This document shows positions 1 to 43,054 of a stretch of DNA of 64,000 bases, one piece after another. Each line of letters opens with the position of its first letter. Position 1 is the first letter of the stretch. This stretch comes from Centroberyx gerrardi (Eukaryota > Chordata > Actinopteri > Beryciformes > Berycidae). Location of the stretch: assembly GCF_048128805.1 (NCBI RefSeq), contig NC_136006.1, positions 1,629,783-1,693,782 on the forward strand, given 5' to 3'. The translations under genes were made by a program, and so were the position numbers. The notes under the pieces were generated by a model, which was given only the letters and a program-made list of their open reading frames with translations, did not search any database and was not told where the DNA came from.

Positions 1-94
1 AACGCTTTATATCTGCCATATCTAGTGATGAGATATACTACTGATACTACAAATGAATACTATTAATGAATATAATGCTCCTGTTTCACTCCAG

Positions 95-914
95 GCAGCT
101 CCACACCCCCACCAACCTCCTCCTCCTCTCCCTGGCTGTCTCAGACTTCCTCAATGGCCTTCTCCTGATACCGACTGAAATCCTCTTCATAGTTAGCTGC
201 TGGTTTCTGGGTGACTTCATGTGTGTTCTGTATTACTTTGTGGCCTTTATCATCATCTCTGCCTCAGTAGGAAACATGGTGCTCATATCAGTCGACCGCT
301 ATGTGGCTATTTGTGACCCTCTGTGTTACCCCACCAAAATCACTCAGAGAAGAGTTAAAATCTGTGTTTGTCTGTGTTGGGTCTGTCCTGCTTTCTGGTG
401 CGGTCTCCTTCTAAAGGATTTACTGAGGCAACCAGGCAGGTATAATTCCTGCATTGGAGAGTGTGTAGTTGTCCATAACTACATCACAGGAGCTGTTGAC
501 CTTGTTTTGACCTTTATTGGTCCCATTACTGTCATCATAGTTCTGTATATGAGAGTATTTGTGGTGGCTGTGTCTCAGGCTCGTGCCATGCGATCCCACA
601 TTGTGGCTGTCACACTCCAGCGTTCAGTGACTGTAACTGCTAAGAAATCTGAGAGGAAAGCAGCCAGGACTCTTGGTATTGTCATAGCTGTGTTTCTAAT
701 ATGTTTCTGTCCATTTTCCTGTCTCTCTCTTGCAGGTGAGGACATCTTGACCACTATATTATCTGAAGCCTTTGTGATCGCTCTGTACTATTTTAACTCC
801 TGTTTAAACCCTGTGATCTATGCCTTTTTCTATCCCTGGTTTAGAAAAGCTATTAAACACATCGTCACACTTCAGATACTGCAGCCTGACTCCTGTGAGG
901 CCAACATACTGTAG
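95..914 (+). CDS. T1: class III TAAR olfactory receptor, exon 2 (gene cut by window edge)
   Basis: A trace amine-associated receptor exon covering TM2 to the C-terminus. It begins after a clear acceptor (CACTCCAG at 87-94), in phase 2, with residues QLHTPTNLLLLSLAVSDF, and ends at TAG 912-914. Exon 1 must lie upstream of base 1. Seen in sequence: D2.50 (AVSD), DRY at the end of TM3, the TAAR TM7 signature NSxLNPxIYxxxYxWF, and a C-terminus ending CEANIL. The classical amine-binding Asp3.32 is Ala, while Asp is present at 5.42 eight residues before the TM5 Pro. Position 6.48 is Phe instead of Trp. Known of the family: this pattern marks teleost class III TAARs, expressed in olfactory neurons. 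The exon has no interruptions. Its closest relatives in the window are T3-T5, which lie in inverted orientation. Confidence 0.9.
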
Positions 915-20867: not shown

Positions 20868-22506
20868 CACGCAACACTTTTGTTTTTGCTCCCATTTTTC
20901 ATGAGTTGAAATAAAAGATCTAAGACTTTTTCTATGCACACAAAAGGCTTATTTCTCTCAAATTTTGTTCACAAATTTGTTTAAATCCGTGTTAGTGAGC
21001 ACTTCTCCTTTGCCAAGATAATCCATCCACCTGACAGGTGTGGCATATCAAGATGCTGATTAAACAGCATGATTATTGCACAGGTGTGCCTTGGGCTGGT
21101 CACAATAAAAGGCCGCTCTAAAATGTGCAGTTTTTATCACACAACACAATGCCACAGATGTCGCAAGTTTTGAGGGAGCGTGCAGTTGGCATGCTGACTG
21201 CAGGAATGTCCACCAGAGCTGTTGCCCGTGAATTGAATGTTCATTTCACTACCATAAGCCGTCTCCAATGTCGTTTCCGAGAATTTGGCAGTACATCCAA
21301 CCGGCCTCACAACCGCAGACCACGTGTAACCACGCCAGCCCAGGACCTCCACATCCGGCTTCTTCACCTGCGAGATCGTCTGAGACCGGCCACCCGGACA
21401 GCTGATGCAACAGTTGGTTTGCAAAACCAAAGAATTTCTGCACAAACTGTCAGAAACCGTCTCAGGGAAGCTCATCTGCGTGCTCGTCGTCCTCACCGGG
21501 GTCTTGACCTGACTGCAGTTCGTCGTCGTAACCGACTTGAGTGGGCAAATGCTCACCTTCGATGGCGTCTGGCACTTTGGAGAAGTGTTCTCTTCACAGA
21601 TGAATCCCGGTTTTCACTGTACCGGGCAGATGGCAGACAGCATGTATGGCGTTGTGTGGGCGAGCGGTTTGCTGATGTCAACGTTGTGAACAGAGTGCCC
21701 CATGGTGGCGGTGGGGTTATGGTATGGGCAGGCATAAGCTACGGACAACGAACACAGGTGCATTTTATTGATGGCAATTTGAATGCACAGAGATACCGTG
21801 ACGAGATCCTGAGGCCCGTTGTCGTTCCATTCATCCACCGCCATCACCTCATGTTGCAGCATGATGATGCACGGCCCCGTGTTGCAAGGATCTGTACACA
21901 GTTCCTGGAAGCTGAAAACATCCCAGTTCTTGCACGGCCTGCAGACTCACCAGACATGTCACCCACTGAGCATGTTTGGGACGCTCTGGATCGGCGTGTA
22001 CGACAGCGTGTTCCACTTCCTGCCGATATCCAGCAACTTCTCACAGCCATTGAAGAGGAGTGGACCGACACTCCACAGGCCACAATCAACAACCTGATCA
22101 ACTCTATGTGAAGGAGATGTGTCGCACTGCATGAGGCAAATGGTGGTCACACCAGATACTGACTGGTTTTCAAAAAATGCATATCTGTAGCCCTAGTCAT
22201 GTGAGATCCATAGTTCAGTGCCTAATAATGTCTTTTTTCAAGATAAAACTGCACATTTTAGAGTGGCCTTTTATTGTGACCAGCCCAAGGCACACCTGTG
22301 CAATAATCATGCTGTTTAATCAGCATCTTGATATGCCACACCTGTCAGGTGGATGGATTATCTTGGCAAAGGAGAAGTGCTCACTAACAAAATTTGAGAG
22401 AAATAAGCCTTTTATGTGCATAGAAAAAGTCTTAGATCTTTTATTTCAACTCATGAAAAATGGGAGCAAAACCAAAAGTTGCGTTTATATTTTTGTTCAG
22501 TATATA
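20868..22506 (+). mobile_element. Tc1-like DNA transposon, nearly whole
   Basis: A 1639-bp Tc1/mariner element flanked by TA (20866-20867 and 22507-22508). It has long inverted repeats of over 200 bp, including CATTTTTCATGAGTTGAAAT at both ends. The right end carries the canonical CTGAACAAAAATATAAACGC terminus (reversed); the left terminus is shortened, starting CACGCAACAC. The empty site survives in the inverted paralogous arm (around 4440-4450), which fixes the boundaries. Confidence 0.92.
21149..22111 (+). CDS. Tc1 transposase (DD34E), slightly damaged
   Basis: A DNA-cutting and joining enzyme of the Tc1 family, 320 aa from ATG 21149. The N-terminal paired-like helix-turn-helix ([19 protein letters not shown]) is followed by an [13 protein letters not shown]-like linker. 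Catalytic residues are visible: D in LFTDESRF, D in MLQHDDARP and E in SPTEHVWD. The usual family reading is QHDNARPHV and PWPAYSPDMSP; here it is QHDDARPRV and [14 protein letters not shown] at 22109-22111 stands where the family normally has Arg. In-frame sequence RRCVALHEANGGHTRY follows, so the last 16 residues are lost. It is therefore probably inactive, but only lightly decayed. Confidence 0.92.
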
Positions 22507-23130
22507 TACAAATCATCGGTGCATTACGTATATCACTGGACTTTCCTCCTATACACATACAGTTCAATTTGGTGTTAATGCCATTTGATGTTTATGCTGT
22601 ATCAATATAAGTATTTGACTAGTTATGTGGCTCTGATACTTGATCTTGGATATTTCCTATTGATACCTGTGAACAAACTATACCTAACCACAGGTCAGAT
22701 TAAGGGTGCACCCACAGTTAGAATTGCAGGTTTAGGCCTAACTGAACCATTATATGACTGAGTATGGTATTCATTCTGAAGTACCTTTTGTGCACAACTG
22801 ACATTGTCTGAGATCAGTATTGTAAGACTTTTGTTTTTAAGTGTTTTTGTTTTATGTTTCAAATATTCAGTACAGCTGGCAAATATTTCTTTAAACACCC
22901 TGTGCTGTGTGATTATTAAGCTCCCAGTATTTACTGCTCTGTGGTCAAACCTCATCTTTCTGATACACAAGCCCATTATTTAATCATTAGACAATGCAGC
23001 AGCATATGTGTTACATAATGTACCACAATACATTATTTCTGATATATATCAAATATACATTTAGTTTATTGTTCATTTCTATATTATTTACATTTTTTAC
23101 ATTATTTTACATTACATTTTCATCTTATAT

Positions 23131-23834: not shown

Positions 23835-24972
23835 CCCTGTCCATACATATATGGATATTTTTGAAAACGTAGTATTTTCTCTGCGTTTTGGCCTCCCGTC
23901 CACACGAAAACAGCCAAATGAACCAAATGAATCAAGGGCGAGTGGCTGTTCAGCCCTCCGACGTTCCCTCGAAAATGAGGCATTTAAAGTGCTGGCTTAA
24001 AAGCGAGGGTTACCCAGCAGGCACTGCGGTACCAATATGAACTACCGCGGAGAGCATGGTGGAGACAACTTATATAGCTCTAAATTAAATGGCTACAATT
24101 CAAATTACTGTAGGCTAATATTTAATTATAAGAAAGACTTTAAATAAAATAGATGTGCATTTTGTTTGAAAACAATTATGTTTGACAACTATGAAATTAT
24201 AAAAAGGAAAACATGGTTAAACCAATTGGAAAATATAAAAACAACATAAAAACAAAACTATACAAAAGAGCAACTTCTCAGGTAGAAACAGACATTTTAC
24301 AATTTCACCATTCATTTATGTCGATGGCTGATTATTAATTTTTTTTTTCAATGATTTTATTTATTTATCCAGTCATGCCCATCGTGCTCTGAAACAAACA
24401 CTAACAATATTGAGAAAATGCGTGTTGCTCAATCTGTGTAATGCACCAACGATGCAACACATGCACAAGTCTTCTTTTTGTGGTCTATGGGCAGCGTTGC
24501 ATATCTCCAATAAAATTGAAAACATACGCTGCAACTATGGCAACAGCTGGCTAGTGACGTGTCATGTCAACAGGAAGCGATGATAGATCGAAGTGCGTCC
24601 CAGAGCTGCTGCTGCAACTCCTTCACCCTCTGGCCTCGGCTCCTCCTGTGAGCGGCCCTTCTGATACAACACTAACACTTCTGAGTGTCACTCAAAACGA
24701 AGGTGGAGTGTTTAGGGGGCGTAACGGGATGGGGGGTCAGTGTCTTGCACGCGTGCTCCTAATGTTCTTCTGTGGTGTTTGACATAAAGTTTTATGACAC
24801 ATTATCGTCACCTACTGGCCTGGCATGCTTATGTGAGCGTTTTAAATCCGTTTTGCCTTCTCATGTGGAGAGATTTTCTAAAACACCATTGGTGTGGATG
24901 TGAATTTTTTTTTTAAAACGGAGGGGGGAAAAAAATGTGTTTCCAGAAATATCCATATACGTGTGGACAGGG
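23835..24972. mobile_element. hAT-like element, 1.1 kb
   Basis: Flanked by a perfect 8-bp duplication TCTAAGTG (23827-23834 and 24973-24980). Ends are CCCTGTCC...GGACAGGG, with the inverted similarity extending into TATGGATATTT. There is no intact transposase. The tandem duplicon that carries T3 starts inside it, at 24563, so only its right part is repeated at 30314-30723 and 36059-36467. Confidence 0.75.
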
Positions 24973-25139
24973 TCTAAGTGCCCTGCAAATCTATTCTTTT
25001 ATCTGCTTTACTCTACATGATGTTGTTTCCAAAGGATGCTATCTCCCTTACATGTTCCTTACTTTTATCAGAAGAATCTAGACTCATAAAACTTTATCCA
25101 TCACTCCTCCCAGTGTTTAACCCTCCTATTATGTTCAAA

Positions 25140-25695
25140 TGAACGTCTTTTATGTTTGGGGTCAAATTGACCCCAGCAATTTAAGTTACCCAAGTTTAGG
25201 TCTCAGTTGTTTTGTGTCTCTCTACTGACCATCTTAATAGCCCTGGAAATAAAACATGAATCCCCTCACCCTATCCTTTTGCATCAAATACTCATATTAT
25301 GCAACTATCGAAAAATGCGCAAATCACCATAAAGTCTCATTGTTTTACCTAAAATGGAAAAAAAATATATGTTTTGGGGTTTGAAGGGCTTTATATTGCT
25401 TTTAAGTACTTATTTATGATTTCCATAACATTTGGAAATAAACACATTGTTTATTACCAAGGATGGTAACATTTATTATGTTCAGGGTTAGGGTTAGGTT
25501 TGGGAAAAAAACACCAGTAAAAAGTGAACTAGTCACCAGAATTGTCTACTAAGAGAAAATGAACTGGACAGTCTTTTCTGACACATTCTCCTTTAGATCG
25601 CATTAAATCACTACTACAGATTTACTTCCCAGTGTGTGTGTGTGTGTGTGTCAAAATTATCCCTTCTGATATGAAGCTGATTATTATATACATGA
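25140..25695. repeat. Arm 2 of the inverted duplication, outer part
   Basis: Reverse complement of about 2892-3420 in the T1 flank. It includes the palindrome GGGGTCAAATTGACCCC (25157-25173) and the motif CAGGGTTAGGGTTAGG. In this arm about 1.5 kb (23627-25139, with the hAT-like element) separates it from the inner part; arm 1 lacks that block. Confidence 0.8.
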
Positions 25696-25838
25696 AGGGT
25701 TAGAGAGCTCGTCTTGTCATCAACAAGTCAAAGGTTCGATCCTGGAAACAGCCATTGTGTGTCCATCAACAGCCACGTGTCCAAATGTCCTTGAGCAACA
25801 CACTGATGAGAGCATCAGCTAAATGCCACATCATCCCG
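25696..25838 (+). mobile_element. tRNA-derived SINE, V-SINE-like
   Basis: A tRNA-like head with GGTTAGAGAGCTCG (A-box-like) and GGTTCGATCC (B box), then GTGTCCAAATGTCCTTGAGC, the core found in fish SINEs of the V-SINE kind. Repeated in duplicons B and C (31442 and 37197 onwards). A related, more diverged copy lies next to T6 at 47440-47600. Confidence 0.6.
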
Positions 25839-26039
25839 TTTTACCCTGTTCTATCTTTTATTTCTCCTGTTTTTCATGTTTTATCTCTTATCTATTTTAT
25901 CTCTTTTATTCCTCCTGTCATATTTGTCCAGTTTCTAACTCCTGTTTTATTTTGTTTCATCTCTCCTCTCAGCCTCCTTTCAACTCTTTTATGATGTTGT
26001 ATTTCTTTTTCCCTGTTTCTCTGCTTGAGTTGATGTTGA

Positions 26040-26101
26040 TTTTACCTTGTTTCTTTAAAGCACTTTGTAACTTTGTTTTGAAAAGTGCTATACAAATTAA
26101 G

Positions 26102-26163
<62 letters not shown>

Positions 26164-26175
26164 CATCATCATCAT
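26040..26175 (+). mobile_element. LINE/SINE 3' tail with (ATT)n
   Basis: The stretch AAAGCACTTTGTAAC...AAGTGCTATACAAATTAAG followed by (TTA)n is the kind of 3' end seen in fish L2-type elements and SINEs that borrow it. The (ATT)n run is 26105-26163 here and shorter in copies B (31855-31903) and C (37605-37628). Confidence 0.55.
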
Positions 26176-26421
26176 CATGATCAGTGGAAGGATGACAGGT
26201 TATATTCTAGTTACTGATAACAGAGGGAAACATAGTTGTCTATAGACATGATTTCTAAAGTTTTCAATCACAAACACGAGATACAATAATAGAACAGAAC
26301 CATGTTTTTAATATGTCCATGCTTTTGGCCTTTTGAATAAAACAAACAAACAACAAAAACACAAAAAACTACATTAATCTCTTCATAGAAAAAGTCTGGT
26401 TTCAGTGACTCCACAGCCTCT

Positions 26422-27615
26422 CTACAGTATGTTGGCCTCACAGGAGTCAGGCTGCAGTATCTGAAGTGTAACAATCAGTTTAACAGCTTTTCTAAACCAG
26501 GGATAGAAAAAGGCATAGATCACAGGGTTTAAACAGGAGTTACAATAGAACAGAGAGATCACAAAGGCTTCAGACGTAATACTGGTCGAGGTGTCCTCAA
26601 CTGCAAGAGAGAGACAGTAATATGGACAGAAACACATTAGAAACACAGCTATGACAATACCAAGAGTCCTGGCTGCTTTCATCTCAGATTTCTTAGCAGT
26701 TACAGTCACTGAACGCTGGAGTGTGACAGCCACAATGTGGGATCGCATGGCACGAGCCTGAGACACAGCCACCACAAATACTCTCATATACAGAACTATG
26801 ATGACAGTAATGGGAGCAGTAAAGTTAAAAACAAGGTCAACAACTCCTGCAATGTAGTTAATAACAACCACACACTCTCCAACACAGGAATTATACCTGC
26901 CTGGATGCCTCAGTAAATCCTTTAGAAGGAGACCACTGCAGAAAGCAGGACAGACCCAACACAGACAAACACAGATTTTAACTCTTCTCTGAGTGATTTT
27001 GGTGGGGTAACACAGAGGGTCACAAATAGCCACATAGCGGTCGACTGATATGAGCACCATGTTTCCTACTGAGGCAGAGGTAATGATAAAGGCCACAAAG
27101 TAATACAGAACACACATGAAGTCACCCAGAAACCAGCAGCTAACTATGAAGAGGATTTCAGCCGGTATCAGGAGAAGGCCAGTGAGGAAGTCTGAGACAG
27201 CCAGGGAGAGGAGGAGGAGGTTGGTGGGGGTGTGGAGCTGCCTGAAGTGAAACAGGAGCATTATATTCATTAATAGTATTCATTTGTAGTATCAGTAGTA
27301 TATCTCATCACTAGATATGGCAGATATCAAGCATTATGAAAATAGAAAAGCATTATTTAGCAACTTTTTTCATCAAATTGTGGTCCATAAGTCATTTGTT
27401 TTTGTAAGTCTGAATTGCATTGATAAAATCTTTGGCCACCTGTAGTGGGAGATGGAGATGATGACCAGCAGGTTGAGAGACACGGTGAGCAGAGAGATGG
27501 AGGACAGCAGAATGTAGAGGAGCATGACCTCAGAGTGAGGACGCATCTGCTTCCTGCAGGAAGTGTTGAGGAGCTGTGGAAAGCAGAGTTCACCTCCTTC
27601 CAGGGTCTCCATCAT
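26422..27615 (-). CDS. T3: class III TAAR olfactory receptor, complete two-exon gene (duplicon A)
   Basis: Minus strand; exon 1 27615-27440, exon 2 27241-26422, 198-bp GT-AG intron, phase 2. Product 331 aa. Exon 1 would read through the donor (CAC TAC AG|GTGGCC), so the intron is inferred from the paralogs and the downstream acceptor TTCACTTCAG. TAAR features are present: N17-T-S glycosylation site between two Cys, D2.50, DRY, the TM7 signature, and Cys in ECL2. 3.32 is Ala109 and Asp194 is at 5.42; 6.48 is Phe. It differs from T4 at 11 positions, all between residues 228 and 292, and at residue 30 (Val), though the surrounding duplicons are nearly identical. The segment around Met246 resembles T2. 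Confidence 0.92.
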
Positions 27616-27715
27616 CAGAGAGAGAGGAGGAGAGGAGAAGCTGCTGAGGTCTGGCAGCTTTCTGACCAAAGCTCTCTATCATACAGATGATTTATCTCTC
27701 TATTCCCTTAATTTC

Positions 27716-27760
<45 letters not shown>
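27616..27760 (-). promoter_or_regulatory. Conserved TAAR 5' flank of T3 with (CT)n tract
   Basis: Same block as before T2 and T7 (GAGAGCTTTGGTCAGAAAGC core, here inverted), then a poly(C)/(CT)n tract at 27717-27757 as read on the plus strand. The tract varies in length between the three duplicons. No TATA box can be assigned with confidence. Confidence 0.45.
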
Positions 27761-28459
27761 TCAGAGACTGATGTCCCTCCACCCCCCTTCCTCTGCATCA
27801 TCCTTTCATCACTCTCTCTGCTGTCCTTTCTCTTCTCTTCCTCATGTGTCTTCTCCCCCATTGTCTCCTTTCCTCTCTCCTCCTTCCGTCCCAATCCCTC
27901 CTCCCCCCTTACCCATCCCTTTGCTCTCTTCTGTCACCCACCCCTCCCATCTGACTTCTCTTGCTGCTCCATTTTTTCTGTCTTCCACCTCGTCACCTCT
28001 CTTTCCTCCTACTGACCTCTCCCGCCTCCTCCCCCTCCAACTCTGATGTAAGAGGTTGTTTTCAGTTTATTGTGGATGACAGAAAGCCTCTCGTCTCTGA
28101 AAATAGGGTTAGGGTTAGGGAGAGATATGATCAATGTTAGAATGAAAAAAAAAGTCTGTAGGTGTAGAATGTAGTTGATTGAGGTGCTGTGACTTTCTCT
28201 TTCCACACTCAGTGAAAGCGGCATAATGTTGTGACCCCTTGTGATTTGGGATGCAATTGAACATCATATGACTCCATGCAAGGGTTGCACAATTAATTGT
28301 GTGTAATCATACATTCTGAAGGAATTCAAGTTGCACAACTCTTCTCCATTTTATGCTCTATGCTTTAATAATCACCAAACGTTTTCAGCTTCATGGCCTT
28401 CATCAGGGAGGGTTTCATTGTAATCATACAGTACATTGCAATTTTACTCACCACAATCT

Positions 28460-28632
28460 GACCAATGCTCTCTATCATACAGGTGATTTATTTCTCTCTT
28501 CCTTCCTTCATCTCACTCTCTCTCTCTCTCTCTCTTCATCTCTTTTTTTCTCTCTTCCCTTTTTGGCCCTCCCTTCCTCCTTCCCTCGCTATCATCCTCT
28601 TCATCTCCATCGTCATTGTTGCACACGTTAAA
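28460..28632 (-). promoter_or_regulatory. Second TAAR-type 5' flank remnant without its gene (duplicon A)
   Basis: CTGACCAATGCTCTCTATCATACAGGTGATTTAT followed by a CT-rich run closely matches the block just upstream of the TAAR genes (CTGACCAAAGCTCTCTATC...TACAG-TGATTTAT), same orientation as T3 and about 845 bp upstream of it. The exon 1 expected beside it is absent. Copies: 34205-34377 and 39919-40089. Probably a remnant of a lost TAAR gene. Confidence 0.55.
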
Positions 28633-28936
28633 TATTCTTTTAGATGACCGTAGCCACAAGCTGGTGCTTTCTGTGCTTTCATTCACACTGCCACAGCTTG
28701 CTTTTATGCAAATATACACTGATATTCAGTAATACATTATTATAAATCAAGTGATTTCTACAGTATTATATTAATCCGTTCCACTATTCCAACAATATTA
28801 TCCCTGTACTCACATCATGACATAAAAGGGAAAAAAATAAATAAAAGTGTCTTTAAAGCAATAATAATCAAAATATGAGCAAGCACCATCTTTTATAACT
28901 GCTAATAAACTGAAACCATTACCAGAACCGTAGAAG

Positions 28937-30313
28937 CTCAAAGCAACAAAAGCTTAACCATAAGGCTAGCATGTTAGACTAAGCTAGCAGAGCTTCCCTG
29001 TGTTAAGCATGCTATGCTAGCAAACAAGCTTACCTTGTCTTCCAACTTTTAATTCCTACTACATACAAAACACTGAACTTTCTGGTTGGAGAAATTCAGC
29101 TGCGAGTCGCGCATGTGCCAAATCATAGGCAGGAGTGCAGTCCAAAAGCTATGTCTATAGGAAGCCAGGGTGTCTTCCAAACATGAATTCATATAGAGAT
29201 AAACCTGTGACGTAATTTTTTGTCCAGTTATAGGCATGTGTGAGAGGTCGTACATAATCATGCCAATGTGTCTTCTCCTTATCCTTCAAGGTACCCAACA
29301 TACTAAGGAGGGTCCGGTTGTAGCGCTCTACCGGATTCCCTCTAGGGTGGTAAGGGCTTGTTCTGACTTTGCGTATGCCTGCCAGGGAGCACAGTTCTCG
29401 GATGGTGTGAGATTCAAAATCTCTTCCCTGGTCGCTGTGGAGTCTTTCAAGAATCCCGTAATGGACTAAGAAGTGTTCCTATAGACATCTCACTACAGTA
29501 TTGACCTTTTGATCTCTAGTTGGAATGGCCACGGTGTATTTTGTGAAATGGTCAGTGATGAAAAGAATATCTTTGAGGTTTCGGCTGTCTGGCTCTACTG
29601 AGAGAAAGTCCATGCAGACTTACTCCAATGGCCTGGTGGTCTAGATGTTAACTAAAGGAGCGTCTTCCGGTGTACACATCTCTCACAGACCTTCATTTTT
29701 CCTCTCAATGTCTGTAGCCATTCTTGGCCAGTAGAACCGAGACCTCGAAAGGTCAATAGTGCACTCGATCCCTAGGTGGCCCATATTGTTGTGAAGATTC
29801 TGAAATGCAGTAGGCCTGAGGATCTAAGGGAGCACAAACTGTAACAGGGTCTCTTTTTCACAAAGTTGTTTTCGGTAGAGTAGATCATTTTGAATCTCCA
29901 GATGCCTCCATTCCTTTAACACCAAGTTAAGGTCAGGGGAGTCTGCTTTGAAATTTGCAGGTAAGCTGTCTCCTGCTTCCATCAAGTGAATGACCTTGCC
30001 AATGACGGGATCATCCCTTTGCATCTGCTTGCAGCTTGCAGCGTCGAGCTTAGCTGTTGTAAGCACATAGGTTAATGGATTGTTGTCTGTAACAACGGTA
30101 AAGGTGTTACTGTACAGATAGTCATGACATTTTTCTGTTATGTCCCACTTGAGAGCCAGGAACTCAAGCTTATGAGCCGGGTATCTAGATTCACTGCGTG
30201 ACAAGCCACAGCTCGGATAGGCAACCACTTGTTTCTTCCCATCATGCTCCTAGTATAGGGCAGCTCCTAAACCCGTTGTGCTAGCTTCCGTATGAAGGAC
30301 GTATCAGCGTAGC
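28937..30313 (-). mobile_element. Ty3/gypsy fossil, RNaseH-integrase part (duplicon A)
   Basis: Minus-strand remains of an LTR retrotransposon of the Ty3/gypsy group. RNaseH-like sequence lies at about 30230-29824 (VVTDNNPLTYVL, HKLEFLALKW) and integrase-like sequence at about 29700-29050. It is broken in several places and has no recognisable LTR. It was present before the tandem duplication, because copies A and B both carry it. Confidence 0.8.
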
Positions 30314-31852
30314 CATGTCAACAGGAAGCGATGATAGATCGAAGTGCGTCCCAGAGCTGCTGCTGCAACTCCTTCACCCTCTGGCCTCGGCTCCTCCTGT
30401 GAGCGGCCCTTCTGATACAACACTAACACTTCTGAGTGTCACTCAAAACGAAGGTGGAGTGTTTAGGGGGCGTAACGGGATGGGGGGTCAGTGTCTTGCA
30501 CGCGTGCTCCTAATGTTCTTCTGTGGTGTTTGACATAAAGTTTTATGACACATTATCGTCACCTACTGGCCTGGCATGCTTATGTGAGCGTTTTAAATCC
30601 GTTTTGCCTTCTCATGTGGAGAGATTTTCTAAAACACCATTGGTGTGGATGTGAATTTTTTTTTTAAAACGGAGGGGGGAAAAAAATGCGTTTCCAGAAA
30701 TATCCATATACGTGTGGACAGGGTCTAAGTGCCCTGCAAATCTATTCTTTTATCTGCTTTACTCTACATGATGTTGTTTCCAAAGGATGCTATCTCCCTT
30801 ACATGTTCCTTACTTTTATCAGAAGAATCTAGACTCATAAAACTTTATCCATCACTCCTCCCAGTGTTTAACCCTCCTATTATGTTCAAATGAACGTCTT
30901 TTATGTTTGGGGTCAAATTGACCCCAGCAATTTAAGTTACCCAAGTTTAGGTCTCAGTTGTTTTGTGTCTCTCTACTGACCATCTTAATAGCCCTGGAAA
31001 TAAAACATGAATCCCCTCACCCTATCCTTTTGCATCAAATACTCATATTATGCAACTATCGAAAAATGCGCAAATCACCATAAAGTCTCATTGTTTTACC
31101 TAAAATGGAAAAAAAATATATGTTTTGGGGTTTGAAGGGCTTTATATTGCTTTTAAGTACTTATTTATGATTTCCATAACATTTGGAAATAAACACATTG
31201 TTTATTACCAAGGATGGTAACATTTATTATGTTCAGGGTTAGGGTTAGGTTTGGGAAAAAAACACCAGTAAAAAGTGAACTAGTCACCAGAATTGTCTAC
31301 TAAGAGAAAATGAACTGGACAGTCTTTTCTGACACATTCTCCTTTAGATCGCATTAAATCACTACTACAGATTTACTTCCCAGTGTGTGTGTGTGTGTGT
31401 GTCAAAATTATCCCTTCTGATATGAAGCTGATTATTATATACATGAAGGGTTAGAGAGCTCGTCTTGTCATCAACAAGTCAAAGGTTCGATCCTGGAAAC
31501 AGCCATTGTGTGTCCATCAACAGCCACGTGTCCAAATGTCCTTGAGCAACACACTGATGAGAGCATCAGCTAAATGCCACATCATCCCGTTTTACCCTGT
31601 TCTATCTTTTATTTCTCCTGTTTTTCATGTTTTATCTCTTATCTATTTTATCTCTTTTATTCCTCCTGTCATATTTGTCCAGTTTCTAACTCCTGTTTTA
31701 TTTTGTTTCATCTCTCCTCTCAGCCTCCTTTCAACTCTTTTATGATGTTGTATTTCTTTTTCCCTGTTTCTCTGCTTGAGTTGATGTTGATTTTACCTTG
31801 TTTCTTTAAAGCACTTTGTAACTTTGTTTTGAAAAGTGCTATACAAATTAAG

Positions 31853-31905
<53 letters not shown>

Positions 31906-32163
31906 CATCATCATCATCATGATCAGTGGAAGGATGACAGGTTATATTCTAGTTACTGATAACAGAGGGAAACATAGTTGTCTATAGACATGATTTCTAA
32001 AGTTTTCAATCACAAACACGAGATACAATAATAGAACAGAACCATGTTTTTAATATGTCCATGCTTTTGGCCTTTTGAATAAAACAAACAAACAACAAAA
32101 ACACAAAAAACTACATTAATCTCTTCATAGAAAAAGTCTGGTTTCAGTGACTCCACAGCCTCT

Positions 32164-33357
32164 CTACAGTATGTTGGCCTCACAGGAGTCAGGCTGCAGT
32201 ATCTGAAGTGTAACAATCAGTTTAACAGCTTTTCTAAACCAGGGATAGAAAAAGGCATAGATCACAGGGTTTAAACAGGAGTTAAAATAGTACAGAGCGA
32301 TCACAAAGGCTTCAGACGTAATACTGGTCGAGGTGTCCTCAACTGCAAGAGAGACACAGTAAAATGGACAGAAACATATTAGAAACACAACTACAGCAAT
32401 ACCAAGAGTTCTGGCTGCTTTCCTCTCAGATTTCTTAGCAGTTACAGTCACTGAACGCTGGAGTGTGACAGCCACAGTGTGGGATCGCATGGCACGAGCC
32501 TGAGACACAGCCACCACAAATACTCTCATATACAGAACTATGATGACAGTAATGGGAGCAGTAAAGTTAAAAACAAGGTCAACAACTCCTGCAATGTAGT
32601 TAATAACAACCACACACTCTCCAACGCAGGAATTATACCTGCCTGGATGCCTCAGTAAATCCTTTAGAAGGAGACCACTGCAGAAAGCAGGACAGACCCA
32701 ACACAGACAAACACAGATTTTAACTCTTCTCTGAGTGATTTTGGTGGGGTAACACAGAGGGTCACAAATAGCCACATAGCGGTCGACTGATATGAGCACC
32801 ATGTTTCCTACTGAGGCAGAGGTAATGATAAAGGCCACAAAGTAATACAGAACACACATGAAGTCACCCAGAAACCAGCAGCTAACTATGAAGAGGATTT
32901 CAGCCGGTATCAGGAGAAGGCCAGTGAGGAAGTCTGAGACAGCCAGGGAGAGGAGGAGGAGGTTGGTGGGGGTGTGGAGCTGCCTGAAGTGAAACAGGAG
33001 CATTATATTCATTAATAGTATTCATTTGTAGTATCAGTAGTATATCTCATCACTAGATATGGCAGATATCAAGCATTATGAAAATAGAAAAGCATTATTT
33101 AGCAACTTTTTTCATCAAATTGTGGTCCATAAGTCATTTGTTTTTGTAAGTCTGAATTGCATTGATAAAATCTTTGGCCACCTGTAGTGGGAGATGGAGA
33201 TGATGACCAGCAGGTTGAGAGACACGGTGAGCAGAGAGATGGAGGACAGCAGAATGTAGAGGAGCATGGCCTCAGAGTGAGGACGCATCTGCTTCCTGCA
33301 GGAAGTGTTGAGGAGCTGTGGAAAGCAGAGTTCACCTCCTTCCAGGGTCTCCATCAT
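32164..33357 (-). CDS. T4: class III TAAR olfactory receptor, complete two-exon gene (duplicon B)
   Basis: Exon 1 33357-33182, exon 2 32983-32164, intron 198 bp, phase 2. Product 331 aa with all family motifs of T3 (DRY, Cys pairs, NSCLNPVIYAFFYPWF). Ala109 is at 3.32 and Asp194 at 5.42. Relative to T3 it has Thr228, Arg246, Ala-Val-Val 255-257, Ile261, Phe266, Val269, Ala288, Tyr290 and Phe292, i.e. a changed TM6-ECL3-TM7 region. The ALYYF before the TM7 signature is shared with T1 and T5. No frame damage; likely functional. Confidence 0.92.
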
Positions 33358-33462
33358 CAGAGAGAGAGGAGGAGAGGAGAAGCTGCTGAGGTCTGGCAGC
33401 TTTCTGACCAAAGCTCTCTATCATACAGATGATTTATCTCTCTATTCCCTTAATTTCCCCCC

Positions 33463-33505
<43 letters not shown>

Positions 33506-34681
33506 TCAGAGACTGATGTCCCTCCACCCCCCTTCCTCTGCATCATCCTTTCATCACTCTCTCTGCTGTCCTTTCTCTTCTCTTCCTCATGTGTCTTCTC
33601 CCCCATTGTCTCCTTTCCTCTCTCCTCCTTCCGTCCCAATCCCTCCTCCCCCCTTACCCATCCCTTTGCTCTCTTCTGTCACCCACCCCTCCCATCTGAC
33701 TTCTCTTGCTGCTCCATTTTTTCTGTCTTCCACCTCGTCACCTCTCTTTCCTCCTACTGACCTCTCCCGCCTCCTCCCCCTCCAACTCTGATGTAAGAGG
33801 TTGTTTTCAGTTTATTGTGGATGACAGAAAGCCTCTCGTCTCTGAAAATAGGGTTAGGGTTAGGGAGAGATATGATCAATGTTAGAATGAAAAAAAAAGT
33901 CTGTAGGTGTAGAATGTAGTTGATTGAGGTGCTGTGACTTTCTCTTTCCACACTCAGTGAAAGCGGCATAATGTTGTGACCCCTTGTGATTTGGGATGCA
34001 ATTGAACATCATATGACTCCATGCAAGGGTTGCACAATTAATTGTGTGTAATCATACATTCTGAAGGAATTCAAGTTGCACAACTCTTCTCCATTTTATG
34101 CTCTATGCTTTAATAATCACCAAACGTTTTCAGCTTCATGGCCTTCATCAGGGAGGGTTTCATTGTAATCATACAGTACATTGCAATTTTACTCACCACA
34201 ATCTGACCAATGCTCTCTATCATACAGGTGATTTATTTCTCTCTTCCTTCCTTCATCTCACTCTCTCTCTCTCTCTCTCTTCATCTCTTTTTTTCTCTCT
34301 TCCCTTTTTGGCCCTCCCTTCCTCCTTCCCTCGCTATCATCCTCTTCATCTCCATCGTCATTGTTGCACACGTTAAATATTCTTTTAGATGACCGTAGCC
34401 ACAAGCTGGTGCTTTCTGTGCTTTCATTCACACTGCCACAGCTTGCTTTTATGCAAATATACACTGATATTCAGTAATACATTATTATAAATCAAGTGAT
34501 TTCTACAGTATTATATTAATCCGTTCCACTATTCCAACAATATTATCCCTGTACTCACATCATGACATAAAAGGGAAAAAAATAAATAAAAGTGTCTTTA
34601 AAGCAATAATAATCAAAATATGAGCAAGCACCATCTTTTATAACTGCTAATAAACTGAAACCATTACCAGAACCGTAGAAG

Positions 34682-36058
34682 CTCAAAGCAACAAAAGCTT
34701 AACCATAAGGCTAGCATGTTAGACTAAGCTAGCAGAGCTTCCCTGTGTTAAGCATGCTATGCTAGCAAACAAGCTTACCTTGTCTTCCAACTTTTAATTC
34801 CTACTACATACAAAACACTGAACTTTCTGGTTGGAGAAATTCAGCTGCGAGTCGCGCATGTGCCAAATCATAGGCAGGAGTGCAGTCCAAAAGCTATGTC
34901 TATAGGAAGCCAGGGTGTCTTCCAAACATGAATTCATATAGAGATAAACCTGTGACGTAATTTTTTGTCCAGTTATAGGCATGTGTGAGAGGTCGTACAT
35001 AATCATGCCAATGTGTCTTCTCCTTATCCTTCAAGGTACCCAACATACTAAGGAGGGTCCGGTTGTAGCGCTCTACCGGATTCCCTCTAGGGTGGTAAGG
35101 GCTTGTTCTGACTTTGCGTATGCCTGCCAGGGAGCACAGTTCTCGGATGGTGTGAGATTCAAAATCTCTTCCCTGGTCGCTGTGGAGTCTTTCAAGAATC
35201 CCGTAATGGACTAAGAAGTGTTCCTATAGACATCTCACTACAGTATTGACCTTTTGATCTCTAGTTGGAATGGCCACGGTGTATTTTGTGAAATGGTCAG
35301 TGATGAAAAGAATATCTTTGAGGTTTCGGCTGTCTGGCTCTACTGAGAGAAAGTCCATGCAGACTTACTCCAATGGCCTGGTGGTCTAGATGTTAACTAA
35401 AGGAGCGTCTTCCGGTGTACACATCTCTCACAGACCTTCATTTTTCCTCTCAATGTCTGTAGCCATTCTTGGCCAGTAGAACCGAGACCTCGAAAGGTCA
35501 ATAGTGCACTCGATCCCTAGGTGGCCCATATTGTTGTGAAGATTCTGAAATGCAGTAGGCCTGAGGATCTAAGGGAGCACAAACTGTAACAGGGTCTCTT
35601 TTTCACAAAGTTGTTTTCGGTAGAGTAGATCATTTTGAATCTCCAGATGCCTCCATTCCTTTAACACCAAGTTAAGGTCAGGGGAGTCTGCTTTGAAATT
35701 TGCAGGTAAGCTGTCTCCTGCTTCCATCAAGTGAATGACCTTGCCAATGACGGGATCATCCCTTTGCATCTGCTTGCAGCTTGCAGCGTCGAGCTTAGCT
35801 GTTGTAAGCACATAGGTTAATGGATTGTTGTCTGTAACAACGGTAAAGGTGTTACTGTACAGATAGTCATGACATTTTTCTGTTATGTCCCACTTGAGAG
35901 CCAGGAACTCAAGCTTATGAGCCGGGTATCTAGATTCACTGCGTGACAAGCCACAGCTCGGATAGGCAACCACTTGTTTCTTCCCATCATGCTCCTAGTA
36001 TAGGGCAGCTCCTAAACCCGTTGTGCTAGCTTCCGTATGAAGGACGTATCAGCGTAGC
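34682..36058 (-). mobile_element. Ty3/gypsy fossil, RNaseH-integrase part (duplicon B)
   Basis: Near-identical counterpart of 28937-30313 created by the tandem duplication. Broken in several places. Confidence 0.8.
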
Positions 36059-39000
36059 CATGTCAACAGGAAGCGATGATAGATCGAAGTGCGTCCCAGA
36101 GCTGCTGCTGCAACTCCTTCACCCTCTGGCCTCGGCTCCTCCTGTGAGCGGCCCTTCTGATACAACACTAACACTTCTGAGTGTCACTCAAAACGAAGGT
36201 GGAGTGTTTAGGGGGCGTAACGGGATGGGGGGTCAGTGTCTTGCACGCGTGCTCCTAATGTTCTTCTGTGGTGTTTGACATAAAGTTTTATGACACATTA
36301 TCGTCACCTACTGGCCTGGCATGCTTATGTGAGCGTTTTAAATCCGTTTTGCCTTCTCATGTGGAGAGATTTTCTAAAACACCATTGGTGTGGACGTGAA
36401 TTTTTTTTTTAAAACGGAGGGGAGAAAAAATGCGTTTCCAGAAATATCCATGTACGCGTGGACAGGGTCTAAGTGCCCTGCAAATCTATTCTTTTATCTG
36501 CTTTACTCTACATGATGTTGTTTCCAAAGGATGCTATCTCCCTTACATGTTCCTTACTTTTATCAGAAGAATCTAGACTCATAAAACTTTATCCATCACT
36601 CCTCCCAGTGTTTAACCCTCCTATTATGTTCAAATTAAGTCTTTTATGTTTGGGGTCAAATTGACCCCAGCAATTTAAGTTACCCAAGTTTAGGTCTCAG
36701 TTGTTTTGTGTCTCTCTACTGACCATCTTAATAGCCCTGGAAATAAAACATGAATCCCCTCACCCTATCCTTTTGCATCAAATATTCATATTATGCAACT
36801 ATCGAAAAATACGCAAATCACCATAAAGTCTCATTGTTTTACCTAAAATGGAAAAAAAAAAAAATGTTTTGGGGTTTGAAGGGCTTTATATTGCTTTTAA
36901 GTACTTATTTATGGTTTCCATAACATTTGGAAATAAACACATTGTTTATTACCAAGGATGGTAACATTTATTATGTTCAGGGTTAGGGTTAGGTTTGGGA
37001 AAAAAACACCAGTAAAAAGTGAACTAGTCACCAGAATTGTCTACTAAGAGAAAATGAACTGGACAGTCTTTTCTGACACATTCTCCTTTAGATCGCATTA
37101 AATCACTACTACAGATTTACTTCCCAGTGTGTGTGTGTGTGTGTGTGTGTGTCAAAATGATCCCTTCTGATATGAAGCTGATTATTATATACATGAAGGG
37201 TTAGAGAGCTCGTTTTGTCATCAACAAGTCAAAGGTTCGATCCTGGAAACAGCCATTGTGTGTCCATCAACAGCCACGTGTCCAAATGTCCTTGAGCAAC
37301 ACACTGATGAGAGCATCAGCTAAATGCCACATCATCCCGTTTTACCCTGTTCTATCTTTTATTTCTCCTGTTTTTCATGTTTTATCTCTTATCTATTTTA
37401 TCTCTTTTATTCCTCCTGTCATATTTGTCCAGTTTCTAACTCCTGTTTTATTTTGTTTCATCTCTCCTCTCGGCCTCCTTTCAACTCTTTTATGATGTTG
37501 TATTTCTTTTTCCCTGTTTCTCTGCTTGAGTTGATGTTGATTTTACCTTGTTTCTTTAAAGCACTTTGTAACTTTGTTTTGAAAAGTGCTATACAAATTA
37601 AGTTTATTATTATTATTATTATTATTATCATCATCATCATGATCAGTGGAAGGATGACAGGTTATATTCTAGTTACTGATAACAGAGGGAAACATAGTTG
37701 TCTATAGACATGATTTCTAAAGTTTTCAATCACAAACACGAGATACAATAATAGAACAGAACCATGTTTTTAATATGTCCATGCTTTTGGCCTTTTGAAT
37801 AAAACAAACAAACAACAAAAACACAAAAAACTACATTAATCTCTTCATAGAAAAAGTCTGGTTTCAGTGACTCCACAGCCTCTCTACAGTATGTTGGCCT
37901 CACAGGAGTCAGGCTGCAGTATCTGAAGTGTAACAATCAGTTTAACAGCTTTTCTAAACCAGGGATAGAAAAAGGCATAGATCACAGGGTTTAAACAGGA
38001 GTTAAAATAGTACAGAGCGATCACAAAGGCTTCAGACGTAATACTGGTCAAGGTGTCCTCAACTGCAAGAGAGAGACAGTAAAATGGACAGAAACACATT
38101 AGAAACACAACTACAGCAATACCAAGAGTTCTGGCTGCTTTCCTCTCAGATTTCTTAGCAGTTACAGTCACTGAACGCTGGAGTGTGACAGCCACAATGT
38201 GGGATCGCATGGCACGAGCCTGAGACACAGCCACCACAAATACTCTCATATACAGAACTATGATGACAGTAATGGGAGCAGTAAAGTTAAAAACAAGGTC
38301 AACAACTCCTGCAATGTAGTTAATAACAACCACACACTCTCCAACGCAGGAATTATACCTGCCTGGATGCCTCAGTAAATCCTTTAGAAGGAGACCACTG
38401 CAGAAAGCAGGACAGACCCAACACAGACAAACACAGATTTTAACTCTTCTCTGAGTGATTTTGGTGGGGTAACACAGAGGGTCACAAATAGCCACATAGC
38501 GGTCGACTGATATGAGCACCATGTTTCCTACTGAGGCAGAGATGATGATAAAGGCCACAAAGTAATACAGAACACACATGAAGTCACCCAGAAACCAGCA
38601 GCTAACTATGAAGAGGATTTCAGCCGGTATCAGGAGAAGGCCAGTGAGGAAGTCTGAGACAGCCAGGGAGAGGAGGAGGAGGTTGGTGGGGGTGTGGAGC
38701 TGCCTGAAGTGAAACAGGAGCATTATATTCATTAATAGTATTCATTTGTAGTATCAGTAGTATATCTCATCACTAGATATGGCAGATATCAAGCATTATG
38801 AAAATAGAAAAGCATTATTTAGCAACTTTTTTCATCAAATTGTGGTCCATAAGTCATTTGTTTTTGTAAGTCTGAATTGCATTGATAAAATCTTTGGCCA
38901 CCTGTAGTGGGAGATGGAGATGATGACCAGCAGGTTGAGAGACACGGTGAGCAGAGAGATGGAGGACAGCAGAATGTAGAGGAGCATGGCCTCAGAGTGA

Positions 39001-39179
39001 GGACGCATCTGCTTCCTGCAGGAAGTGTTGAGGAGCTGTGGAAAGCAGAGTTCACCTCCTTCCAGGGTCTCCATCATCAGAGAGAGAGGAGGAGAGGAGA
39101 AGCTGCTGAGGTCTGGCAGCTTTCTGACCAAAGCTCTCTATCATACAGCTGATTTATCTCTCTATTCCCTTAATTTCCT

Positions 39180-39219
<40 letters not shown>

Positions 39220-40393
39220 TCAGAGACTGATGTCCCTCCACCCCCCTTCCTCTGCATCATCCTTTCATCACTCTCTCTGCTGTCCTTTCTCTTCTCTTCC
39301 TCATGTGTCTTCTCCCCCATTGTCTCCTTTCCTCTCTCCTCCTTCCATCCCAATCCCTCCTCCCCCCTTACCCATCCCTTTGCTCTCTTCTGTCACCCAC
39401 CCCTCCCATCTGACTTCTCTTGCTGCTCCATTTTTTCTGTCTTCCACCTCGTCACCTCTCTTTCCTCCTACTGACCTCTCCCGCCTCCTCCCCCTCCAAC
39501 TCTGATGTAAGAGGTTGTTTTCAGTTTATTGTGGATGACAGAAAGCCTCTCGTCTCTGAAAATAGGGTTAGGGTTAGGGAGAGATATGATCAATGTTAGA
39601 ATGAAAAAAAAAGTCTGTAGGTGTAGAATGTAGTTGATTGAGGTGCTGTGACTTTCTCTTTCCACACTCAGTGAAAGCGGCATAATGTTGTGACCCCTTG
39701 TGATTTGGGATGCAATTGAACATCATATGACTCCATGCAAGGGTTGCACAATTAATTGTGTGTAATCATACATTCTGAAGGAATTCAAGTTGCACAACTC
39801 TTCTCCATTTTATGCTCTATGCTTTAATAATCACCAAACGTTTTCAGCTTCATGGCCTTCATCAGGGAGGGTTTCATTGTAATCATACAGTACATTGCAA
39901 TTTTACTCACCACAATCTGACCAATGCTCTCTATCATACAGGTGATTTATTTCTCTCTTCCTTCCTTCATCTCACTCTCTCTCTTTCTCTCTTCATCTCT
40001 TTTTTTCTCTCTTCCCTTTTTGGCCCTCCCTTCCTCCTTCCCTCGCTATCATCCTCTTCATCTCCATCGTCATTGTTGCACACGTTAAATATTCTTTTAG
40101 ATGACCGTAGCCACAAGCTGGTGCTTTCTGTGCTTTCATTCACACTGCCACAGCTTGCTTTTATGCAAATATACACTGATATTCAGTAATACATTATTAT
40201 AAATCAAGTGATTTCTACAGTATTATATTAATCCGTTCCACTATTCCAACAATATTATCCCTGTACTCACATCATGACATAAAAGGGAAAAAAATAAATA
40301 AAAGTGTCTTTAAAGCAATAATAATCAAAATATGAGCAAGCACCATCTTTTATAACTGCAAATAAACTGAAACCATTACCAGAACCGTAGAAG
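36059..40393. repeat. Tandem duplicon copy C (contains T5), shorter
   Basis: Matches copies A and B from their start to ACCAGAACCGTAGAAG (to about 40393), then changes to other sequence of a Ty3/gypsy fossil. It has a shorter (ATT)n and a few more single-base differences, e.g. near 36394 and 36450, so it is the most diverged of the three. Confidence 0.93.
37884..39077 (-). CDS. T5: class III TAAR olfactory receptor, complete two-exon gene (duplicon C)
   Basis: Exon 1 39077-38902, exon 2 38703-37884, intron 198 bp, phase 2. Product 331 aa, same architecture as T3 and T4. Ala109 (3.32), Asp194 (5.42), Phe263 (6.48), TM7 signature intact. It has Ile113 in TM3 where T3/T4 have Thr, and Leu277 in ECL3 where they have Ser. 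In TM6 it follows T4 (Ala-Val-Val) but keeps Met261 and Leu269 of T3, giving a mosaic pattern. No damage; likely functional. Confidence 0.92.
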
Positions 40394-43054
40394 GACTGGA
40401 GAGGATGTTAATTTTTCAATTATGCCCTCAAAGGCTTGCTGACAAGCAGGACTCCAGCGTTCACCAAAGGGTTCTTTTGGATTCAGGTATTTGCCATCAC
40501 TCAAGTTGGTCTTACACCCCTTATGCTGGGGTGGGTAGCCGGCAGTAAGACAGGTAATTGGTTTCACTATTTTTGAGTAGTCCTTAACAAATCTCCGGTA
40601 GTAACCGGTGAATCCCTGGAAGGACTGAAGTTCTTTCAAGGTCTGGGGTCTTGGCCACATTTTTAAGGCTTGGGTTTTCTCAGGGTCAGTTTTTATGCCA
40701 TCTCTGGAAACGATATGCCCGAGGTAGAGGACAGAGGTCTGGAAGAATTTGCTTATCAAGTGAGAGCTTAAGACCATATTCTCTTAGGCTGTTTAGGACA
40801 TGACTAAACCGGATTTCATGCTCTTCCAATGTACTTGAGAATATGATCAAATCATCAAGAAAGACAAGAACTTCTTTCAAATTGATGTCTTTCATGCACT
40901 TCTTTATGAGCCTCGGGGGCATTAGTCACCCCCTGGGACATACGATTGAACTTGCAGAATCCAAAGGGGCACACAAATGCTGTCTTTGGCTTGTCTGTCT
41001 CATTCATCACAATTTGGTAATATCTGGATTTTAAGTCAATTACTGAAAACCATTGAGATCCAGCAAGGGCTGAAAATGACTCCTCCATGTTTGGCAATGC
41101 GTAGGCATCTTTAATGATTTGCAAATTAAGCTTCTGATAATCCACACAAAGGCGTACATCTCCATTTTTCTTTCTTACTACGACAACTGGTGATGAAAAC
41201 AGGGACTCGGACTCTCTGATGATGCCTGCATCTAGAAGAGTGCAGGTGTTTCTTGACTGCCTCAAAGTCATGCGGGTGAATGGGGCGAGACCTCTGTTTG
41301 AATGGGGTCTCATCTTGAATTTTAATATGATGCTGGGTCCTAGTAGCATGGCCAAGGTCAAGGTCAAGGTCATGGTGTGAGAAGACGTCTGAGAAGGAGT
41401 TTAGCTTTTGAGTAATTCTTTGTTTCCATTCCTCAGAGAGAGGTGAACTACCAAAGTCAAAACTCAGGTCAGGCTTCTTTTCTGCATTCTGTTGTTGACT
41501 GAAACAGTTGGCAGTAGTTTCACAAGCAGCAACACCCTTCAATGTAGAGCTCTATGACACAATCGGGGGCAACCAGCTCAGCAATTACGCAGTTGGTGGG
41601 TAGCGTGATGTCGTGGTTGGTCTCTTTTGTAAGCAGCACAGTCACCTTGCCTGAGCCATGCTGGGGCAACGATATAAGGCAGCAATCCACAAGCACGCCA
41701 CCTGGTAAAGATGAGCTGGTTGGTTGTTCCAGTAATGCCCACTGTTCTGTGTTGACACGGCTGGCACATATAAAACCCACAAGGAGCACTTTCTGATTGG
41801 CTGGCAGAACCTCTGGTGTCTGACCTCGAAGTTTCACTAGGCCAATTCTCCCACTGATAGCCTGTTTTTTCCTGATCTCCAGTGTTCTGAGGACCTGTTG
41901 GTAGCCATAACAAGGTGAGTTTCGGGCAGGTAAGGGTTTCTCACAGCACTGCTCATACAAGGGGTCAAGAGTGTTCGTACCAATCAACAGTGGGTTATCA
42001 CTGTTTGAACGAAGGTCAGGAACAATCAAAGCCAAGGTGGAAATTTCAGGCTCTAATTCAAAGAGGTTTTTTGGGAACTTTATGCTGGTCTCAACATATC
42101 CCAAGTATGCAAAGTTCTGACCATTTGCTCCCTCCACTTCAAGTAGATCACTGATGGGCTTGACAGAGCTTTCAGATAAGTGATTCTTGTAAAAGGACAT
42201 GGCTACAACTACGCTGGCTGTACACTTGCTGCCTATCAATCGTCTTGGCAATGTAGCATTGCCAGTAACTTCATGGTTTAAGCTTACAGTTTTTTCTTTG
42301 TTCTTCTCTGTAAACGTGGGACATGTTCTATCCCGAGCTCCCATTTGTCCATCAGCAGAAGCCTGGACTAGTTTAAATCAGGTGAGTCAAGTGTGCCATG
42401 CTGGAGCTCCCAGACACATTGCTTTTCTCCGAGTGATTTTCTCTTAGCCTCTACCGAAGCTGGATGTGACCATCTTCACCACACCTGAAACAGTACCACA
42501 GTTTAGGTTTTGGGACCCTTGCAGTGATTTGCTGAACTTTTTTATTTTCTGGCTTATCTTTAGCCTTTTAGGCACTGCTTCTTGAACCCTTTTGATTCTA
42601 TTTTTGCAGGGTTCTCTGTGCTGCAAGCTTTGAGTTGTGTTAATTGGGACTGAAGATCAGCGATTTGCCATTGAGGTCATCGGCGGTAGCAGAGGAAATA
42701 TTCTCAGATTCTGCAAGTAAGTCAGAACCATCCATGTATGGCATACATGCTTTTGTCTTAGTTATACCAAAGTGCTGCTTCATTCTTGTGGCTTTGTTGG
42801 CCCTTTTATCTTCTTCAGTACGAAGAAGAAGAAGCTCGGCCAAGGATGGGGACTCCTTTTTACGCTGTTCAAGCTGGAGGCTGTTTATCAAGGGACCATC
42901 CCAGCACCCACGGCAGTATTGCTTGTGGAGTTGATTATCAGCATCACAAGCAATACCTCCTCTACTGATGACAGAGTTCAAAGCAGTGTGTAGCCATTAC
43001 AGGTAGTCAGAAGCCTTCTCACCAACATCCTGGTTGGTGTTCAAGAATAGAGCA
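40394..43054 (-). mobile_element. Ty3/gypsy fossil, RT, protease-like and Gag parts
   Basis: Minus strand. Reverse transcriptase is at about 41400-40394 (RKKNGDVRLCVDYQKLN, FSVIDLKSRYYQI, FLDDLIIFS, GFTGYYRRFVKDYS). A protease-like region at 42344-41520 and Gag with a zinc-knuckle-like CxxC...GH motif near 42470 follow. It is broken in several places and LTRs were not recognised. A LINE is inserted in its Gag part, and more Gag-like sequence lies beyond it at 44969-45262. Confidence 0.82.

Follow-up and report, generated by a model that had tools for sequence, protein, structure and literature searches.

The window analysed here, a stretch of 64,000 nucleotides (C10:1629783-1693782 of a 779-Mb assembly), lies, by sequence similarity, inside a cluster of TAAR-like genes, whose two-exon members point to a fish as the probable source. 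Of the 40 matches listed for a 501-bp query, C10 1.37-1.85 Mb accounts for 36, C159 for three and C10 2.18 Mb for one. Within the window a 5.75-kb unit is repeated in tandem, with starts at 24563, 30314 and 36059 by self-BLAST, and its copies carry the genes T3, T4 and T5, whose frames are open over two exons and give 331 amino acids each. The corresponding open reading frames on the minus strand (T3 26422-27270, T4 32164-33012, T5 37884-38732) consist of exon 2 and a read-through of the intron end. The genes and units are as follows.

24563..30313, no strand: tandem unit 1 (the T3 unit), 5.75 kb, 99.5% identical to unit 2 over 5741 bp by self-BLAST, also supported by alignment
30314..36058, no strand: tandem unit 2 (the T4 unit), from self-BLAST and alignment
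36059..40393, no strand: tandem unit 3 (the T5 unit), whose homology to units 1 and 2 stops at 40393
27440..27615, minus strand: T3 exon 1, from a GT-AG reading of the sequence and a spliced translation of 331 aa
26422..27241, minus strand: T3 exon 2, in the putative recipient gene, from the spliced translation, with Pfam 7tm_1 and with TAAR13 chains as best solved relatives
32164..32983, minus strand: T4 exon 2, from the ORF list and spliced translation
37884..38703, minus strand: T5 exon 2, from the ORF list and spliced translation
66..914, plus strand: T1, exon 2 plus intron-end read-through, the closest relative of T3-T5 by identity

Several sequences like mobile elements can be picked out by eye. 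A Gypsy-like piece (RNase H/integrase side) closes units 1 and 2 and is absent from unit 3, which runs on into reverse-transcriptase-like ORFs (40393-42344, against 28937-30313), as if part of the Gypsy-like element had been lost beside T5. A transposase ORF of 328 aa (21125-22111), presumably of the Tc1-like family, has what seem to be long inverted repeats on both sides of it within 20890-22510, and an open frame of 1177 aa at 7584-11117 has the look of a non-LTR retrotransposon reverse transcriptase. We also note T6 (47641-48378), which looks like a damaged TAAR copy: it aligns to exon 2 in two pieces only (positions 68-307 and 357-839), and about 20 bp stand where exon-2 308-356 would be.

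T3-T5 are, by sequence, class III-like TAAR genes and candidate smell receptors. T3 matches Pfam 7tm_1 (E=1.2e-44); its nearest solved protein is TAAR13d (E=2.4e-64), and the 15 best of 60 solved sequences listed are all named TAAR, one of them a TAAR1 chimera. The TAAR motif NSX2NPX2[Y/H]X3YXWF, as set out in a part of PMC4786312, is present in all 27 of the genes, T1-T5 and T7 included, that a simple splice scan could translate among 52 units (25 stayed untranslated). At the site of Asp 3.32, 25 of the same 27 genes carry A, S, F or V by alignment and two are unscored; T3 has Ala there. Loss of Asp 3.32 is reportedly a feature of class III TAARs, a finding attributed to Hussain et al. in 2009, and the residue in T3 fits that class. 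A single intron interrupts the genes at codon 58/59, in intracellular loop 1, and is of phase 2 by our GT-AG reading. Its site agrees with that of the two-exon TAARs of family A described in a section of PMC4415300, where most genes have two exons and the split falls in the first intracellular loop, close to codon 55; the phase stated there is 0, which makes the 2 read here tentative.

The full-unit alignment of T3 and T4 spans 5738 positions and contains 17 substitutions, which are far from evenly spread: 13 lie among the 201 bases of 26540-26740 (6.5%), and four among the remaining 5537 (0.07%), so that beyond this tract the units are 99.93% identical in the one assembly from which the difference is known. 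In 100,000 random placements no 193-bp window held more than 8 differences, and 13 was never reached. The tract changes comprise 11 replacement codons (ORF codons 179-243, residues 228-292) and two synonymous changes; beyond it there are V30A in exon 1, one synonymous change at codon 129 of exon 2 and two non-coding changes. The initial annotation, which had counted 11 residue differences at 228-292 and one elsewhere (residue 30) between copies with near-identical introns and flanks, was thus correct, as was its statement that T5 combines T3-like and T4-like residues: at the 14 tract sites variable among the three genes, T5 sides with T4 at 10 and with T3 at three, and is private at one. It had also placed the cluster in TM6-ECL3-TM7, and here only the two helices hold up. 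The changes sit in TM6 and TM7, on both sides of ECL3, most of whose code is identical, and residue 228 falls in ICL3 by alignment.

26557..26612 (exon-2 649-704), minus strand: spared ECL3 side, where T3 and T4 are identical over 56 bp and T5 departs at 673 only

Aligned to TAAR13d, the changed residues are 228 (ICL3), 6.31, 6.40, 6.41, 6.42, 6.46, 6.51, 6.54, 7.40, 7.42 and 7.44 in Ballesteros-Weinstein numbering. On that numbering 6.51 and, less clearly, 6.54, 7.40 and 7.42 would be the sole changed positions at or near the usual pocket, and most of the others (ICL3, 6.31, 6.40-6.42, 6.46) would lie outside canonical ligand positions.

T3-T5 were set against as many as 53 further gene units, in which the C10 2.18-2.22-Mb sub-cluster is represented by five genes, and a genome-wide pattern search was added. 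The segments that emerged are these.

26621..26681 (exon-2 580-640), minus strand: T3 patch A (TM6 side), the visible part of a putative conversion tract, where T4 departs from T3 at nine sites
26616..26815, minus strand: outer limit of patch A, with exact identity to the candidate donor across 200 bp
26543..26556, minus strand: T3 patch B (TM7 side), where codons 239, 241 and 243 each carry a replacement
32343..32409 (exon-2 594-660), minus strand: T4 TM6 block, with one mismatch (640) to the gene at C10:2213656
38098..38129 (exon-2 594-625), minus strand: T5 TM6 block, an exact match to the gene at C10:2213656

Over exon-2 446-645 (200 bp) T3 is identical to the gene at C10:1620396-1621234 (minus strand), about 35 kb away in a unit that is 17.7% diverged. 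Of 988 unit pairs more than 12% diverged, which average 7.9 differences over this interval, four are identical there, the pair with T3 being one of them. Since the family shows little variation over much of 446-592, the informative part of the match is exon-2 580-645, and because the states of T3 in the tract are mostly those of the family majority, other donors of the same type are possible. A gene like C10:1620396-1621234 is a candidate donor of the TM6 part of T3, a role in which many genes could serve. The likeness of T3 to T2 around Met246 that had been pointed out is real to the extent that both have Met246; T2 is nevertheless not the best donor.

The TM6 block common to T4 and T5 is not a private mutation, as it is present at C10 2.19-2.22 Mb: in the genome-wide pattern search a 26-mer from it has an exact counterpart at C10:2214255 and three further ones, each a single mismatch away, at 2.19-2.22 Mb. 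Two changes of T4's own, at 626 and 648, are both found in the distal gene at C10:2213656. Between these donor-like stretches T4 has T at 640, so that several events, or patchy repair within 200 bp, would be needed. The distal TAAR sub-cluster (C10:2192900-2225000), about 0.55 Mb away, shares TM6 blocks with T4 and T5, and four genes sampled from it are identical to T3 over exon-2 495-574.

On the TM7 side, the assembly holds no donor of the T3 triplet (705, 712, 718): its 19-mer is found only in T3, and over exon-2 700-725 the closest units are still 3 bases off. A single tract running from 580 to 718 and copied from C10:1620396-1621234 is rejected, since T3 retains the unit's own ECL3 side. 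T1 shares 580G, 640T, 705G, 712A and 718T with T4 and T5, which makes T3 probably the changed copy at those sites. T1 is also identical to T4 and T5 over exon-2 687-776 (90 bp) and about 4% off in exon-2 1-539, and this identity is possibly the product of another conversion; T1 as direct donor of 687-776 to T4 and T5 is possible, yet unnecessary.

At all 14 of the T3-T4 differences in exon 2, both alleles are found among the 53 other genes (T1 included), against 6.8 of 14 expected under random-base mutation at the same sites (P=1e-5); with a gene set lacking the distal genes it is 12 of 14. We discarded a permutation test of shared runs because exon 2 is, over long stretches, almost invariant across the family, and the test scores such conserved stretches as significant.

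The rates and genealogies bear on whether conversion or selection produced the cluster. In the tract dS is 2/49.3 = 0.0405 and dN is 11/145.7 = 0.0755, and the excess of dN over dS is not significant (Fisher p=0.32). The two synonymous changes do exceed the flank rate, which is 0.00072 over all sites (Poisson p=6e-4, or p=0.004 at the upper 95% limit of the flank rate). Of the two outcomes foreseen in the initial annotation, raised synonymous change with a donor match or raised dN with flat dS, the data point to the former, and so to conversion: synonymous change is raised in the tract, candidate TM6 donors exist and dN is not significantly above dS. The genes' relationships change at the tract as well. 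The odd one out is T3 at 10 tract sites, T4 at three and T5 at one; beyond the tract, within 24563-28936, the counts are four, none and 22 (T3-odd versus T5-odd, tract against outside, Fisher 2.7e-5). Trees were built from 10 of the 52 units. In these the grouping (T3,T4) is incompatible with the tract, an alignment of 97 columns (AU 6.7e-6, SH 2e-4). The flank (1342 columns) favours it; (T4,T5) is rejected there by AU (0.022) and kept by SH (0.38) and KH (0.10), and a (T1,T4,T5) grouping is not rejected (AU 0.066). Tract and flank genealogies thus conflict, the flank side being significant by AU only. The (T1,T4,T5) tree, third of those compared, ties with the second in the tract, which leaves its AU value there numerically degenerate, and AU-type values in general are optimistic here because the tract borders were set post hoc. 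In a tree of exon-2 646-699, T3 groups with T4 once more (support 53, which is weak).

The pattern recurs. From 21 listed self-matches of at least 1.8 kb we picked by eye 10 duplicon pairs with all or part of exon 2; other rows may hold exon pieces as well. They are T3/T4 and nine pairs in C10 1.36-1.56 Mb, of which one was made by joining two adjacent matches. In all 10 pairs the 200-bp zone holds no fewer differences than its length would predict, and in four of 10 it overlaps the richest 200-bp window of the unit. For rates we used nine disjoint pairs, one of the 10 having been left out for sharing a gene with another. Over codons 197-243 they give dN 64.3/919 = 0.070 and dS 20.7/290 = 0.071, both about eight times the non-coding divergence of 0.0085, with dN/dS near 1. 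The dS excess survives removal of T3/T4 (p=2.5e-11) and of the strongest other pair too (p=2.7e-4). Taken singly, seven of the nine pairs show the excess at p<0.05 uncorrected, an eighth falls short of significance (p=0.21), and in the ninth the two copies are identical across the zone. Exon 2 beyond the zone is also raised in the nine pairs (dN 0.019, dS 0.034), so the zone is the strongest target, yet not the sole one. In these pairs both alleles are found elsewhere at 189 of 222 exon-2 differences, against 127 expected. One pair, C10 1481891/1463448, has 71 exon-2 differences against a non-coding difference of 0.4%, and one of its copies matches a third gene exactly over 244 bp. Codon 218 is an in-frame stop in one of the genes of these pairs (C10 1487466); the rate counts skip stop codons.

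The best explanation of these data, and in our view a probable one, is the copying of short ectopic gene-conversion tracts into recently duplicated TAAR genes. Much that speaks for this is observed directly: the cluster of changes, the raised dS, the conflicting genealogies, the sharing of alleles and the near-exact donors of the TM6 blocks. Two features weigh against it: the TM7 patch has no donor in the assembly, and the mosaic is very patchy. The main alternative is that T3-T5 are older than they appear and that conversion or unequal crossing-over across the whole unit has homogenised them everywhere except at a selected ligand-binding stretch. A rise of dS alongside dN is also expected near a selected site, and a divergence peak of this kind is described, for exon 5 of the red/green opsins, in a portion of PMC3924837; strong positive selection in teleost TAARs is likewise stated, with reference to Hussain et al. 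2009, in a part of PMC4256280. We regard this explanation as unlikely, given how the tract is built. The centre of an old island should differ most, and the ECL3 side, the most variable part, where over exon-2 646-704 the nearest genes besides T4 and T5 are 7-8 bases off T3, is instead the same in T3 and T4 over its 56 bp, so that a spared stretch between two foreign patches argues against such an island. The 99.93% likeness of the T3 and T4 units beyond the tract, and the match of tract haplotypes to particular distant paralogs, weigh against it too.

New point mutations favoured by strong positive selection where the receptor faces its ligand, with no part for conversion, would account for 11 replacements against two synonymous changes, for the inferred pocket positions 6.51, 7.40 and 7.42, and for the three TM7 changes, all of them replacements with no donor. 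It seems highly improbable to us as an account of the whole: the synonymous excess, the lack of significance of dN over dS, and a dN/dS of about 1 over nine pairs all run counter to it, the differences are in every case alleles already present in the family, and the TM6 donors make the TM6 case unlikely. The reading offered initially, conversion or strong selection on a ligand-facing region, is accordingly upheld for conversion, and selection alone is disfavoured because ECL3 is spared and most changed positions, being in ICL3 or the inner half of TM6 on the numbering above, would not be canonical for ligand. We give just as little credence to an assembly or polishing artefact that blended reads of other paralogs into T3 or T4. 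Tandem units as alike as these three are difficult to assemble, and the evidence consists of the assembled sequence; against this, the three frames are open at full length, other duplicon pairs show the same pattern, and the TM7 haplotype of T3, being unique in the assembly, could not have been borrowed from an assembled paralog.

If short conversion tracts are indeed the cause, the 5.75-kb unit would have been duplicated in tandem, the T5 side being the older and T3/T4 very recent. The ancestor of T3-T5, or T4 and T5, would have received the TM6 block from the C10 2.18-2.22-Mb sub-cluster; exchange between T4 and T5 could explain their common block in place of ancestral receipt followed by loss from T3 through patch A. 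Afterwards exon-2 580-645 of T3 would have been replaced with the sequence of a gene like C10:1620396-1621234, and T3 would have gained a second patch, at 705-718, from a donor absent from this assembly, and T4 may have received small patches at 626, 648 and perhaps 526 from the distal sub-cluster. Conversion would be visible only where paralogs differ. Selection may have favoured keeping tracts that alter TM6 and TM7; it may thus decide which tracts survive, and the clustering does not need it. The donorless TM7 triplet could itself be a selected point mutation. A donor missing from one assembly is plausible given that, according to a part of PMC4256280, 49 of 64 TAARs vary in copy number. 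More tentatively, each new tandem TAAR copy in this fish might soon be re-diversified by sub-exon cassettes of its ligand-binding half drawn from a pool of paralogs up to 0.5 Mb away, a combinatorial process much as in V-gene conversion, a generalisation that we hold to be possible but somewhat doubtful. Were it true, some of what has been published as 'positive selection' in class III TAARs could be conversion.

The mechanism is an ordinary one, already known from olfactory receptor clusters, and the present case is unusually clear and recurrent. Mammalian olfactory receptor clusters are alike in that tandem receptors are made into mosaic sequences by conversion (the review PMC1995454, citing Sharon et al. 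1999); what differs is that the genes here are teleost TAARs, with tracts confined to the exon in near-identical duplicons and one candidate donor lying as far as 0.55 Mb off. Human red and green opsins, for which Teshima and Innan's divergence peak is covered in a section of PMC3924837, likewise have a coding peak in otherwise homogenised duplicates. There an old difference is shielded from conversion, whereas here the difference was apparently imported by conversion and the centre, on the ECL3 side, is spared. No report of gene conversion in teleost TAARs stood among the titles listed in searches of open-access papers, which is not proof of absence; the term 'gene conversion' has no occurrence in the portions covered of PMC4415300, PMC4786312, PMC6895882 and PMC8032801, and PMC4256280 applies GENECONV to stickleback duplicates with no TAAR-specific result in the parts covered. 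Family A has a mean dN/dS of 0.425 according to a part of PMC4415300. As dS rises with dN in clusters such as this one, codon-based tests of positive selection can mislead unless conversion is modelled. Near-identical receptor copies can quickly diverge by importing existing sequence and need not await point mutations. Because the pattern recurs in independent duplicons, long-read data from populations or sister species could test the question directly.

Lastly, the organisation of the cluster suggests why exons are affected. Between cluster genes introns differ by 27-30%, flanks by 18-47% and exon 1 by 6%, and the exon-2 identity to T3 of genes other than T4 and T5 is roughly 86-95%. Since paralogs beyond the units are alike mainly in their exons, exchange would be expected to rewrite coding sequence only. 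Synonymous diversity along exon 2, profiled in 39 genes (47 cluster genes after collapsing near-identical copies), alternates between low blocks (0.00-0.04, codons 81-100 and 161-200) and high islands (0.19-0.36, codons 41-70, 111-140 and 221-250), so that a tract should be visible mainly in the variable islands. The quiet codons 161-200 correspond to 26671-26790 in T3. The quiet blocks may reflect concerted evolution or constraint at the nucleotide level; they are about equally quiet when compared with a gene on C1 and with the 2.18-Mb gene, with the exception of codons 171-180 against C1 (pS 0.26), and this evenness argues against concerted evolution within the cluster alone.
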